Notes under the pieces: model-generated
Told to the model about the DNA's origin: nothing
Database searches by the model: none
What the model saw: only the letters and a program-made list of their open reading frames with translations
In this document: piece by piece, positions 30,298 to 35,096 of the stretch
Position numbering within the stretch: position 1 is the first letter of the stretch
Layout: each line of letters begins with the position of its first letter
Made by a program: the position numbers and the translations under genes
NCBI RefSeq assembly: GCF_900111195.1
Contig: NZ_FOGL01000003.1
Span: forward strand, 186,001-250,000
DNA from: Gracilibacillus ureilyticus
GTDB lineage: Bacteria > Bacillota > Bacilli > Bacillales > Amphibacillaceae
DNA length: 64,000 bases
Reading direction: 5' to 3'

Positions 30298-30345
30298 AAA
30301 ACCGTCATTCATCAAATTTTGGTGAAATGACGGTTTATGTTTTTT
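30298..30345 (+). terminator. Terminator after murB
   Basis: Stem AAACCGTCATT / AATGACGGTTT, extended inward by TCA/TGA pairing, followed by ATGTTTTTT. The remainder of the gap to 30562 is AT-rich with no gene that I can see. Confidence 0.8.
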
Positions 30346-30562
30346 GAATGGGTAAAATTATGCTATTATTGTTTTTTAGAGATTAACTGTTTAAAGGCCC
30401 GTCTTTATCCTTACTAATTATTAATGTTATACTAATTCAAATAATTTCTAACAAAACAGCTAATAATATGGTTATTCATTTAGAAAAAAATTATTACCTT
30501 GTTACTTTGTTGCGTCCGTTAGTAATCATTCGTTATTTTCTATAGGAAAGGGAGAATTTGTA

Positions 30563-32698
30563 GTGACAGTTGGTAGAAATGATCCGTGTCCATGTGGTAG
30601 TGGGAAAAAATACAAGAAATGTTGTATGAATAAGGATCAAGTTGTAGAACTGGAAATGTTTATAGAGGAAAAGTTTTATAAGCAAAAAGAAGCATTAGTA
30701 GGGAAATTAAATGAATTTTTGCTTGCATATTTAACCATGAATATTTATGCTCCGCTTGAAGCAGAATTCAATCGGAGAACCGGACATATTTTTGAGAAAA
30801 ACAGTAAAGGCTTCTTTCTGTTTTGGTTACACTTCTTTTACCGTTATGATAACGGCCTTCGGGGAATAGAATGGTTCCTGGCTGAAGAAGGAAATCGGTT
30901 AACGAGTGAAGAAAGAAAAATGACCGAGCGTTGGGCTAAGATGAAACCACAGCTGCTGCAAGTGGTTGACCAGACTGAGAAAATAGTGACTGTTATTGAT
31001 TGTTATACGAAGCAGTCATTTCAGCTGCCTAAATCTAAAGGTAATATACAGGATGTCCTGCCATGGGTGAGCACGATTGGTTTATTGGAACAAGTGAATG
31101 ATTCTCATTATTTTAACGGGATCAGGGCCCTTGTAAGTCCGAAAGCCTTAACGAAAGTAAAACAATTGATAGAGAATCTGACGGCAGAAAATAAGATGGA
31201 TTACGAGCAGGTGATGGTGGAGTATTATCCGGAGATACTCGCTGCATTCCACTCCAATGATTTGGAAAAAAACCATAACGATAAAGAAGTAACTTTGTAT
31301 CATTATAAGTATGATTTGCTTGATAAACTTTCGGTAGAGAATTATTTCGAGAATGACCCTGATTTTGTAGTGGAACAATCCAAAACAGATAAAAAAAGAT
31401 TTATATGGCTGAGTGACACGAGCGTATATACTGATAACCAAGTGAATGGTGAAGTGGTTGTTGCGAGAGTAAATGCAACGATAGAAATAAAGGAAGACAC
31501 TCTTTCTTACTCAAGCTATGATTCAGATATAACGGAGAAATTTCTTCATAAATTGAATACAGTTGAAGAATCTGTCAAATTGCTCGATCAGAGGAATGAG
31601 AAGAAAATATTGCCGGATAATTTTGAAATGCAGCAATTAGTTGCAAATCCAGGCAAAGGGGTTCCTGATTATTTCAGTGTATATGCACAGACAATGATCT
31701 TAATAAAACCAGATGAACCGCTTCCGGAATATAATAACCAATCATTAAGAGAGTTAGCACAGAATGATAAGGATACAGCAGAAAACTGGTTTAGAAACAT
31801 GGAATATGAAGTGAACAATGTTGTAGAAGAGCATTTTGGCAATGTAGATATCAGCCCTGATTTCAACACACCTAGAAAAGAACTTGGCTTACCGCTTTCA
31901 CCTTTCGTAACTGGCGGGAGTGAGAGAGTCTCCCGCATGATAAGGGTAGACATGCCTTCATCCCAAAATGAGAGAATATCTTTGAAAAAGGATTCGCCAG
32001 CATATGATATTTTAGGTTTTACCGACAGAATGGTTACCGCTTTTTATGCGGAGGACATTATCGCATTTTATGAAGATAAAACAGCCGGCAAAGCAAAAGC
32101 TACAGAACGGAAATACCGGAATACAATTAGAGATATTATTGATGTATTAGAGATTCGGGGAGTTACCAGCTGGGAGCAGTGTGACCTGAAGTTCTTTGAA
32201 AGATTGATTACAGAAGATATTGTGAGAATGTACACGTATATAACGAAATCTTATATAAAAGCCATACTGGCTACAATCAAATCACTTGCTAAATGGCTTG
32301 CAGAACATAAAAAAGTAATGCTTGAAAAAGAAATTGACCAGCTTGTCAAACAGTATGAACCAACAATGATTAAAATTGCCCAATTATGGGAGTCAGAGAC
32401 TATTTTCCAGATTCCTGAAGAGACTTTTAGTAAAGAGATACTAATGGAGAAATTAGCTGAATTAGATAAAAATATTACAACACTGAAAAAAGGCCGGTAC
32501 AAAGTGTTAGAGGTTGAAGGACAAGGGGTCAGTGTGGTTAATATGGACGATAATCTAGAAGAGAAGTTTTCTTTAAATGAAAGTTCTATACCATTGGTAG
32601 AAGAAGGAATGGTGTTTGTCACTTACATTGGTAAAAAAGAAACTGAGAATAAATGGGAAAGTGTTTACCTGGAGGCTTTATATTACCATGTAGACTGA
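30563..32698 (+). CDS. Large SEC-C zinc-motif protein with recombinase-like core-binding region; function unknown
   Basis: 711 residues. The N-terminus is a SEC-C zinc motif, GRNDPCPCGSGKKYKKCC (C9, C11, C20, C21), unusual in being at the start rather than the end. Residues about 25-470 match nothing I recognise. Residues about 480-590 have the helical pattern of a tyrosine-recombinase SAM-like core-binding domain (ATERKYRNTIRDIIDVLEIR ... IKSLAKWLAEH), but no catalytic Arg/His/Tyr domain follows. The C-terminal 100 residues look beta-rich. SEC-C motifs otherwise occur in SecA and bind zinc and sometimes ribosomes. It stands alone between terminators; the ribosome site is AAAGGGAG. Confidence 0.8.
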   Translation: MTVGRNDPCPCGSGKKYKKCCMNKDQVVELEMFIEEKFYKQKEALVGKLNEFLLAYLTMNIYAPLEAEFNRRTGHIFEKNSKGFFLFWLHFFYRYDNGLRGIEWFLAEEGNRLTSEERKMTERWAKMKPQLLQVVDQTEKIVTVIDCYTKQSFQLPKSKGNIQDVLPWVSTIGLLEQVNDSHYFNGIRALVSPKALTKVKQLIENLTAENKMDYEQVMVEYYPEILAAFHSNDLEKNHNDKEVTLYHYKYDLLDKLSVENYFENDPDFVVEQSKTDKKRFIWLSDTSVYTDNQVNGEVVVARVNATIEIKEDTLSYSSYDSDITEKFLHKLNTVEESVKLLDQRNEKKILPDNFEMQQLVANPGKGVPDYFSVYAQTMILIKPDEPLPEYNNQSLRELAQNDKDTAENWFRNMEYEVNNVVEEHFGNVDISPDFNTPRKELGLPLSPFVTGGSERVSRMIRVDMPSSQNERISLKKDSPAYDILGFTDRMVTAFYAEDIIAFYEDKTAGKAKATERKYRNTIRDIIDVLEIRGVTSWEQCDLKFFERLITEDIVRMYTYITKSYIKAILATIKSLAKWLAEHKKVMLEKEIDQLVKQYEPTMIKIAQLWESETIFQIPEETFSKEILMEKLAELDKNITTLKKGRYKVLEVEGQGVSVVNMDDNLEEKFSLNESSIPLVEEGMVFVTYIGKKETENKWESVYLEALYYHVD

Positions 32699-32717: not shown

Positions 32718-32768
32718 AACCGAACAGTGAGCGAATTTTTATTATTCCTCATAGTTCGGTTTTTTTAT
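32718..32768 (+). terminator. Terminator after the SEC-C gene
   Basis: Stem AACCGAAC / GTTCGGTT with additional inner pairing (GTGAG/CTCAT) and seven T residues. Confidence 0.75.
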
Positions 32769-32849: not shown

Positions 32850-35096
32850 GTGCATAAAAAGGTAATCGCTTTAATTACTGCGGGGATCAGTATATCTGTT
32901 CTTGCAACGTTCTCACCGGCTGATATTTCTGCTGAAGAACAACAAAGTGACAAAGTTATGGAAGAAACGGGAGGGGAAATACAGTCAATTGACCAGCAAG
33001 AAGCTCTGCAAATAGCCGAGGAGTTTTTTGGGGTAAATTTAGCTAATGCTGAATTCTATTATGATCAAAATTGGTATCGTAATAATTTGCCTGTATGGAG
33101 TATCAGCTATGAAAAGGAAACTGCAGGAAAAGGTCTGGAATATTTTTATATTACAATTGATGCAGTTAATGGGGACATAGTTAATACAGGCTATGACGTG
33201 AATTCGGGTGAAGGTCCTTCTGTTTATCCGCCTGAAATTAGTTGGGAAGATGGAAAGGTCACGGCAGGTAAAATAGTAGATAAGTATTTTTCAAACTGGA
33301 AAGATATGATGAAACCTGACTCCTCAACTGAACCTCATAAGCCTGCTTTAAGTGACCAGGCAGTTTACACCTACCGGTATAACCGGGTAATCGATGGAGT
33401 AGAACTGCCGAACAATCATGTCGAGGTTAATGTAAGTGGCAACAATGAACTGATTTCTTTTAACAGCACGTGGGATTACCATATTGAATTAGAATCGAAC
33501 CCTGTAAAGTATACAAAGCAAGAGGCACTTTCACACTTTCAGCAAAAGCTGCCTGTTGATATTCAATACAGTTCATTAAATAGATATTACCGGCCGGCAA
33601 ATGATGGATCAGGGGAAATGATATTAGAGTATGCATTGAATGAAAATTACCCATATCTGGATGCTTTCACAGGTGAATGGATTAACAGGCGTGGTGAGAC
33701 AACGAGCCAGGCAGAGGAAATTAATCAAGAGTCAATCGTGAAAAAGCCGCTTGAGCCTAATCGCATGATTCAAAGTATTATGACAGAAGATGAAGCAGAA
33801 AAATTCGCAAGGGATGTTGTGAATATACCTGATGATATGGTTGTTGAAAATATTCAATATTTTCAGAACGAAAGCCAGCCGGTTACCTGGGGATTAACGT
33901 TCAGCCAAGCCAATGAAGGTGGAAATAATCCTGATGTTAAACGTATAGATTTAAGGATAAATGCAACAACGGGTGAAATTTATAACTATTATGCTGGTGG
34001 AATGCAGACTATCGAAGAGATGAATTCGGAAGAGGTAAATATATCTTATGAAGAGGCGAAAAACAGAGCAGAGGAAATTGTAAAAAAATTTGCACCGGAG
34101 AAAGCACACAAAGTTTACTTAGAAAATATAGAAAATGGTTACAGGGAAGAGGCTGGGATTTATCATTTCATGTTCCAGCGAAAAGAGAATGGAATACCTG
34201 TTAAAGGGGATGCGATAGAAGTAAGAATTTCATCTTCTGATGGCACCCTGCTTGACTTTTATCAAAGCTGGCAAAATAATGTGACATTTCCTTCGTTAGA
34301 AAATGTTATTTCAAAAGAATCAGCATTTGAACGTTTTCTGGAAAGATATGAAGTTGATCTAGGCTGGAAAATGATCCAGTCAGAATTTAAGGAAGAGGAA
34401 GAAGAACATTACCGAAAGGTCTATTATCTAAATGATTTAAATGTCTTTGATCAGGCTGTATATTTAAATGCGAAAACAGGAAAATGGCACTCCCGTTTAA
34501 CTGATGAAATTGTAACAGTGAATCCGGAAGCAAACGATATCACTGGATTGCCTGAAGAAGAGGCCTTGAAACTAATGATTGCTTACGGAGCCCTAACGGT
34601 AGACGAGAATGGAGATGTGCATCCGGAAAAGACTGTCACAAGAGGTGAAATGGTTAAAATGCTCATGTTAGCAAATAATCCGGATCCTGTATACTATTAC
34701 GATATGGGTGCAGAATATGCCAACTCTGAAGGGAGTTTCGATGATGTGAGTGCAGGCAATGAGTATTTCTCCTATGTAGAAGAAGCCATTCGCCAGGGAT
34801 TTCTGGATAAGGACGATGAGAATTTCAAACCTAATCAACTTGTGACAAGACTGGAATTAGCTGAGTTACTAGTTCATGCATTAGAGTACGACAAGATAGC
34901 TAACTATGGTGAAATGTTCCAGCATCCTTATGAGGATATTACCACAAAAGAACAATCCGGCTATGTAGCTATTGTACATTACCTTGATATTATGCCAACC
35001 GAAAGTAACAAGTTTTTACCTGATCAGCATGTTAGTCGTGCCGAGGCTGCCCAGATCTTTTATCAATATTTAACCGTAAGAGGAACATTGGATTAA
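32850..35096 (+). CDS. Secreted SLH-domain protein with YcdB/PepSY-like repeats
   Basis: 748 residues, GTG start after AAGAGGAGG. A signal peptide (KKVIALITAGISISVLATFSPADISA) is followed by two to three YcdB/YcdC-type repeats of about 200 residues, each with a helix (SIDQQEALQIAEEFF; SYEEAKNRAEEIVKKF) and strands ending in a TGE/NGDI turn, as in PepSY domains. From about residue 565 there are three S-layer homology domains: TVDENGDVHPEKTVTRGEM, FDDV...DKDDENFKPNQLVTRLEL and YEDI...LPDQHVSRAEA. The SLH part would bind pyruvylated wall polymer. PepSY-type repeats often inhibit proteases, so a protease-modulating role is possible but unproven. Confidence 0.8.
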   Translation: MHKKVIALITAGISISVLATFSPADISAEEQQSDKVMEETGGEIQSIDQQEALQIAEEFFGVNLANAEFYYDQNWYRNNLPVWSISYEKETAGKGLEYFYITIDAVNGDIVNTGYDVNSGEGPSVYPPEISWEDGKVTAGKIVDKYFSNWKDMMKPDSSTEPHKPALSDQAVYTYRYNRVIDGVELPNNHVEVNVSGNNELISFNSTWDYHIELESNPVKYTKQEALSHFQQKLPVDIQYSSLNRYYRPANDGSGEMILEYALNENYPYLDAFTGEWINRRGETTSQAEEINQESIVKKPLEPNRMIQSIMTEDEAEKFARDVVNIPDDMVVENIQYFQNESQPVTWGLTFSQANEGGNNPDVKRIDLRINATTGEIYNYYAGGMQTIEEMNSEEVNISYEEAKNRAEEIVKKFAPEKAHKVYLENIENGYREEAGIYHFMFQRKENGIPVKGDAIEVRISSSDGTLLDFYQSWQNNVTFPSLENVISKESAFERFLERYEVDLGWKMIQSEFKEEEEEHYRKVYYLNDLNVFDQAVYLNAKTGKWHSRLTDEIVTVNPEANDITGLPEEEALKLMIAYGALTVDENGDVHPEKTVTRGEMVKMLMLANNPDPVYYYDMGAEYANSEGSFDDVSAGNEYFSYVEEAIRQGFLDKDDENFKPNQLVTRLELAELLVHALEYDKIANYGEMFQHPYEDITTKEQSGYVAIVHYLDIMPTESNKFLPDQHVSRAEAAQIFYQYLTVRGTLD

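Follow-up and report, generated by a model that had tools for sequence, protein, structure and literature searches.

A SEC-C protein of Gracilibacillus ureilyticus with a predicted core-binding domain of tyrosine-recombinase type

Introduction

A 64,000-nucleotide stretch of the Gracilibacillus ureilyticus genome (hereafter the window) encodes a 711-aa protein that begins with a SEC-C metal motif and, far downstream, contains a region resembling the core-binding (CB) domain with which tyrosine recombinases hold DNA. An earlier interpretation based on the letters of the window alone (the sequence-only reading) proposed a zinc- and nucleic-acid-binding protein without a recombinase catalytic domain, possibly derived from a recombinase. 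This raises the questions of whether the resemblance to recombinases is genuine, whether the protein as a whole descends from a recombinase, and what a CB domain might do outside such an enzyme. The features discussed below are collected in Table 1.

Table 1. Features of the SEC-C gene and its surroundings, in window coordinates.
Feature	Position	Strand	Basis
Terminator-like hairpin 3′ of upstream murB-like gene, then T run	30299..30336	+	-19.6 kcal/mol, z -5.6
Ribosome-binding site AGGAAAGGGAG, 8 nt 5′ of GTG	30544..30554	+	read by eye
Whole gene, 711 aa, GTG start	30563..32698	+	start position agrees with relatives in alignment
SEC-C metal motif, residues 5-23	30575..30631	+	PF02810, 39.8 bits
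Scaffold part 1, residues 24-235: helices and five-stranded part (129-185)	30632..31267	+	model; common to wider Firmicutes family
Scaffold part 2, residues 236-352: alpha/beta part	31268..31618	+	model
Scaffold part 3, residues 371-446: aligns with Xre/MbcA/ParS C-terminal domain of wider family, ends DFNTxRKELGLP	31673..31900	+	alignment
Predicted CB domain, residues 484-583	32012..32311	+	profile comparison with controls, domain model, structure matches
C-terminal helix and OB-like barrel, residues 588-711	32324..32695	+	structure match; absent from ~600-aa relatives
Terminator-like hairpin 3′ of SEC-C gene, then T run	32718..32761	+	-18.5 kcal/mol, z -7.4

Results

The SEC-C gene is intact and probably transcribed alone

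The gene was read from the letters of the window as a single open frame with a GTG start, and its ribosome-binding site is strong. Terminator-like hairpins close both the upstream gene, judged by eye to be murB-like, and the SEC-C gene itself, so the latter is probably transcribed as a single-gene unit; a consensus pattern scan restricted to loops of 3-8 listed neither hairpin. Genus mate G184, whose murB-like gene is the most similar (85% identity), carries a SEC-C gene at the same site. Between these two SEC-C genes dN was 0.253 and dS 1.49 over the whole gene, and 0.18 and 1.85 over residues 476-600. The gene is thus intact and under purifying selection, and dN/dS ruled out a pseudogene. 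The dN to G184 was 0.089 for the murB-like neighbour and 0.226 for the other neighbour. The 748-aa neighbour encoded at 32850-35096 looks PepSY- and SLH-like by eye; among the 16 other genomes of the genus it was found at full length in G184 only (66% identity), where it and the SEC-C gene occupy the same site.

The N-terminal SEC-C motif is complete and invariant

SEC-C (PF02810, residues 5-23) was the only Pfam family above its cut-off in the 711-aa protein (E = 4e-10, 39.8 bits against a cut-off of 20.4). Its four cysteines (C9, C11, C20 and C21) are invariant in all 38 aligned rows, own row counted, which bears out the complete CxC...CC motif read earlier, a putative zinc site. Two other SEC-C matches were seen in the same genome, in an 855-aa frame that is SecA by size and in a 399-aa open frame (G000:C32:113010-113066). 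Rv0613c, a mycobacterial SEC-C protein of 855 aa, has TPR-like parts and is reported to act in surface exposure of HBHA (PMC6032435).

The invariant cysteines of SEC-C, and its standing as the sole Pfam match above a cut-off, would suit a chaperone or adaptor linked to the Sec system or the ribosome. In such a protein SEC-C would do the work of SecA's metal-binding tail, with the CB fold as a helical surface for binding protein and not DNA. As far as the accessible text of a review goes, the SecA tail binds SecB, a domain almost identical to it occurs in E. coli YecA, and unreviewed work suggests that YecA is a chaperone (PMC8076867), all of which fits such a role. The SEC-C motif is what the 711-aa protein has in common with YecA, YchJ and the C-terminal metal-binding domain of SecA, but the matches span little beyond it, and the motif is N-terminal here. 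NCBIfam matches to SecA-tail-like, YecA- and YchJ-type families stayed within residues 2-46 and far below the cut-offs, PDB matches to SecA and YchJ stayed within residues 1-22, and no likeness to the three proteins past the motif was found in NCBIfam or among PDB sequences. Together with the heads and the motif-less relatives described below, this makes a Sec-linked adaptor an unlikely reading, though one to be taken seriously.

Residues 484-583 resemble the core-binding domain of tyrosine recombinases

The sequence-only reading had placed the helix pattern of a XerC/D-type CB domain at about residues 480-590. The predicted models agree with it: they contain four helices (496-507, 512-532, 542-556 and 562-581), and the domain modelled alone reached a pLDDT of 95.4. 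In the VIA list of structure matches, the CB model was closest to 3nrw (Z 11.8, 2.2 Å over 100 residues), then to 3lys (Z 9.2), the first two being N-terminal domains of recombinases, the recombinase-like SroF (9.1 and 8.7), 2kiw (8.3) and XerA (7.9), with entries for Cre (3c28, which we take to be Cre) and its derivative Tre at 7.3-6.3, on a scale where helical bundles easily reach middling Z and where five mostly helical models that lacked a clear match typically had a best Z of about 14. Rows 1-7 and 9-17 of the list are recombinases or SroF, and one Bcl-xL entry (Z 7.2) is interleaved among the matches.

Such Z values could also arise from a convergent four-helix bundle unrelated to recombinases. 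Convergence would also fit the Foldseek search with the CB model, in which the top match, again 3nrw, had a probability of 0.99 and an E value of 0.73 and no match reached E ≤ 0.001, and the PDB sequence search with the CB alignment, in which the HMMER matches were not recombinases (best E = 0.045, to a pyocin). The profile comparison speaks against it: the family profile of residues 480-600 matched a set of 33 recombinase CB domains with probability 95.5 and E = 1.4e-8 over residues 508-586, and each half of that set was matched separately (6.3e-7 and 2.1e-8). As controls, 100 column shuffles of the profile gave no value reaching 1e-3 (minimum 0.0033), reversed columns gave 0.09, and four other segments gave 0.16-0.31 against the recombinase set. 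Pfam points in the same direction. The 711-aa protein alone yielded sub-threshold matches to Phage_int_SAM_4 (E = 0.02) and Phage_int_SAM_1 (PF02899; E = 0.12, 13.1 bits against a cut-off of 22.3), the latter family was found at E ≤ 1 in 23 of the 38 rows (best 7.4e-6), and two of ten relatives scanned singly exceeded its cut-off (L014, 26.6 bits; L092, 24.3 bits). Because of the Pfam matches, the controlled profile comparison and the helices of the models, the resemblance is more than chance, and convergence is very improbable. By profile homology and predicted four-helix fold the region groups with recombinase CB domains, the Foldseek E value being non-significant when taken alone, and we predict with high confidence that residues 484-583 form a four-helix CB domain of tyrosine-recombinase type.

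The catalytic half of a recombinase was sought as well. Nothing in the family matched a profile of the recombinase catalytic domain, as the sequence-only reading had anticipated, and the simple HxxR...Y pattern is absent from the 711-aa protein; a catalytic domain with RKHRH and a tyrosine nucleophile, the mark of a tyrosine recombinase, was therefore not found. An NCBIfam match to an IS110 transposase at residues 554-644 was weak (E = 0.21). No confident match of the whole protein to a known enzyme emerged either, again in line with the earlier expectation. Whole-model Foldseek matches to RNase R, Dis3L2 and eIF2-alpha, and those in the viral library, were rejected on TM-scores of mostly 0.05-0.25 and rmsd of mostly 12 Å or more. 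PPR repeats at residues 326-365 (PDB sequence, E down to 7.5e-5) were likewise rejected, since no stretch passed alone and nothing else supported them.

The putative DNA-binding surface differs in part from that of recombinases

The recombinase signature G-x-S-x2-T-x3-Y-x3-L is common to the family at positions 509, 511, 514, 518 and 522, which also counts against convergence; the 711-aa protein departs from it with A at 511 and I at 522. CB domains of recombinases bind DNA with their basic helices B and D. A basic residue stands at position 573 in 37 of 38 family rows and 31 of 33 recombinases, and at 577 in 33 of 38 and 18 of 33, respectively. Other hallmark positions differ: basic residues occur at position 508 in 1/38 family rows as against 29/33 recombinases, at 567 in 2/38 as against 31/33, and at 568 in 0/38 as against 20/33. 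Conversely, the family has basic residues that are rare in recombinases at positions 510, 516, 517, 526 and 566 (526 is I in the 711-aa protein). Positive and negative charges in the CB domain nearly balance, the median net charge being +1 (from -10 to +7). With the signature and 573 kept, 508, 567 and 568 lost, other basic positions present and the charge near zero, the putative DNA binding by the CB head is judged likely. Since two of the most conserved basic positions are missing, a protein-binding role is possible, and this partial loss is a point in favor of the Sec-linked adaptor. In recombinases, CB domains bind the recombination site, according to the accessible text of PMC8138268.

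Residues 1-493 belong to a wider Firmicutes scaffold family with a different head

Across the phylum, a profile of residues 26-448 matched in 24 of 299 genomes (own counted), many of the matches being partial. A wider alignment was assembled from 13 of these 24 loci (L174-L197), L036 (first 570 residues of the frame) and L147, the remaining loci being near-copies, partial, or having a different longest frame. These 15 proteins matched residues 1-493 with a profile E of 2.5e-35 over 370 aligned columns. Members such as L185, L194, L189 and L036 have the same order of SEC-C, helices, barrel and MbcA/ParS-like segment as the 711-aa protein and share an N-x2-R-K-x-L-G-L-like end with it. Among ten of them scanned singly, SEC-C was over the cut-off in six and Xre_MbcA_ParS_C in three. 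In the 711-aa protein itself, Pfam gave no match to that domain (PF09722) at E ≤ 10, and PF09722 was not among the 25 of 38 families listed by Pfam for the 38 rows. Scaffold part 2, whose structure matches were weak (Z 8.2 and below), is mostly a gap in the wider family, with a match in L036 (E = 7.7e-7); L036 additionally carries a PRiA4_ORF3 domain.

The C-terminal end differs. Instead of a CB domain, seven of the ten scanned proteins gave a C-terminal HTH-type or DUF6398 match (E ≤ 0.01; one over the cut-off), no Phage_int_SAM match was found in any of the ten, and the CB profile did not match the wider alignment (E = 0.077). As residues 1-493 align with the wider family and the CB profile does not, the scaffold is common to both and the head differs; and as HTH-type or DUF6398 matches fill the same C-terminal slot, that slot looks like one for a DNA-reading head, the HTH-type heads of most of the wider family speaking against a Sec-linked adaptor. 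Judged from these alignments, it would be wrong to regard the entire 711-aa protein as a broken recombinase. The possible derivation from a recombinase that had been proposed fits the C-terminal head only. We infer, rather than observe, the direction of the swap, that is, which head is older.

A C-terminal barrel is optional, and reduced forms exist

The close family falls into two length classes: proteins of ~600 aa end soon past the CB domain, and those of ~710 aa add a helix and an OB-like barrel. The barrel model matched LEF-3 (Z 8.6 over 69 residues). It is present in 16 of 41 tree rows, with at least five changes on the tree, three of them forced by well-supported branches, and no lost barrel was found downstream of short forms in 14 loci. 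A likeness of the C-terminal barrel to the first one in the wider family (E = 9.4e-5) suggests an internal repeat; comparing the two barrels within the own family alone gave a probability of 2.3 and E = 0.02.

Shorter architectures came to light when 12 places were opened among the 54 genomes of the order with a CB-profile match: nine small proteins in eight genomes, three forms of 476-493 aa and one fragment. The 476-493 aa forms are without the alpha/beta and MbcA-like parts; the sequence of one of them (L218) starts identically to L030. The small proteins, 281-341 aa long (loci L210, L211, L212, L213, L214, L215, L216 and L221, with two in L210), consist of a CB-like domain and barrel and match residues 476-711 at E = 8e-30. 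The CxCGS...CC pattern is present in five of the nine; the other four keep the CB-like domain and barrel without it, which argues against the Sec-linked adaptor. A profile of the small proteins found no match to recombinases (E = 0.039), and no Pfam family exceeded its cut-off in the eight that were scanned.

The gene is patchy and has no neighbour common to most loci

Full-length relatives were found in 11 of 120 genomes of the taxonomic family and in 6 of 17 genomes of the genus, own counted in both, with a remnant in a seventh genome of the genus. The CB profile matched at E ≤ 1e-4 in 54 of 299 genomes of the order, in 33 of them at E ≤ 1.2e-28, the rest being mostly shorter frames. Named tree rows, among the matches listed, are Bacillaceae or Anoxybacillaceae. 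Alignment A1 was made without L026 and L032 (taken to equal L086 and L087) and without L027 and L029 (which match as L028 does), equality being judged other than residue by residue; L004 and L089 are identical. The three relatives at L027-L029 (Geobacillus, Parageobacillus; 438, 731 and 444 aa) are clustered at one place. In G094 the SEC-C gene lies elsewhere, and the murB-side sites of G094, G102 and G003 are without it. The remnant (G102:C4:418613-418876; L094, L169) covers residues 528-615 with one stop and sits between the same neighbours as the intact G094 copy, as after a recent loss. Two frames beside ordinary genes in G094 (L168:8701-8997 and L170:4171-4626) consist of tandem repeats (KDNSERFLCF..., EMKDKKCENPSKVSLIR...) that look like DNA-level repeats.

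Patchiness, fast divergence (62% identity to G184 against 85% for the murB-like gene) and the three wider-family proteins reaching the Xre_MbcA_ParS_C cut-off would all suit a defence or antitoxin-type protein, its MbcA/ParS-like segment binding a toxin or sensor and its gene being under conflict-driven turnover. Yet the other neighbour is equally fast (65%), a RES domain is absent from the own genome and present in only 1 of 17 genus genomes, and the six PADLOC hits are all confined to residues 2-46, none falling outside the SEC-C region. The six own-genus rows also group together on the tree, with weak support (65/21). A comparison of gene neighbourhoods, which the sequence-only reading had recommended, covered 31 loci: neighbours are stable within the Sediminibacillus/Virgibacillus, Metabacillus and Alkalicoccobacillus rows, but no neighbour is common to most loci, and no conserved operon appeared. 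Neighbours recurring in more than one genus belong to closely related genera (Sediminibacillus/Virgibacillus, Metabacillus and a MAG neighbour, Geobacillus/Parageobacillus, Fredinandcohnia/B. timonensis), and the other recurrent clusters have N-termini that resemble those of broad families (ABC ATPases, transporters, small regulators). Residues 230-711 matched nothing in phages, and the one plasmid record that matched did so in the SEC-C part only, on which grounds mobile-element cargo was rejected. A defence or antitoxin role is quite improbable.

Discussion

The reading that we favor, at a probability of about 0.45, is that the 711-aa protein is a non-catalytic, DNA-binding regulator or adaptor, encoded by a single-gene unit, that uses a captured recombinase CB domain. 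With the CB half present and the cutting half missing, the protein's task is probably to bind DNA or a partner and not to rearrange DNA. Like its counterparts in recombinases, the CB domain would grip a DNA site, here with no cut made. A partner would dock on the scaffold and SEC-C motif, and the optional OB-like barrel may add nucleic-acid or protein contacts. The searches described above yielded no DNA site, operon or partner.

The CB domains of tyrosine recombinases (3nrw, 3lys, 2kiw, XerA, Cre) share the four-helix fold, the signature and the basic positions 573 and 577 with the predicted domain, whereas here the basic positions 508 and 567 are lost, no catalytic domain was found, and the domain sits behind a scaffold rather than at the front of an enzyme. 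The closest working model is a recombinase-like repressor of the kind of SPbeta MrpR, although here only the CB half is present and the scaffold is a different one. SroF, a repressor of phage phi3T, belongs in the same comparison through its matches to the CB model. To our knowledge, neither MrpR nor SroF has SEC-C or this scaffold, and both are phage repressors, unlike the 711-aa protein with its phage-unmatched residues 230-711. In the accessible text of the report on it, MrpR has a recombinase fold, binds DNA, represses SPbeta and has no recombinase activity, much as is proposed for the CB head here; it retains a degenerate catalytic domain (PMC10516654), whereas none was found in the 711-aa protein.

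More speculatively, and rather doubtfully as a whole, the family may represent a modular SEC-C scaffold with an exchangeable DNA-reading head, in which the HTH-type head was replaced by a recombinase CB domain in one Firmicutes order. This would have given a class of proteins that carry metal, do not cut, and mark or regulate DNA sites of the recombination type, along with a stand-alone, pared-down version (a SEC-C trace, CB and barrel). Among open-licence papers, no link of SEC-C with a recombinase or integrase SAM domain was found, the one co-mention being in separate table rows.

Pfam detects little of the family described here or of its two related architectures. If the favored reading is true, a recombinase core-binding domain would be at work away from any recombinase and joined to a SecA-type metal motif. 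Occupying the position that an HTH-type domain holds in relatives, it would also offer a testable case of DNA-binding heads being swapped on a scaffold.
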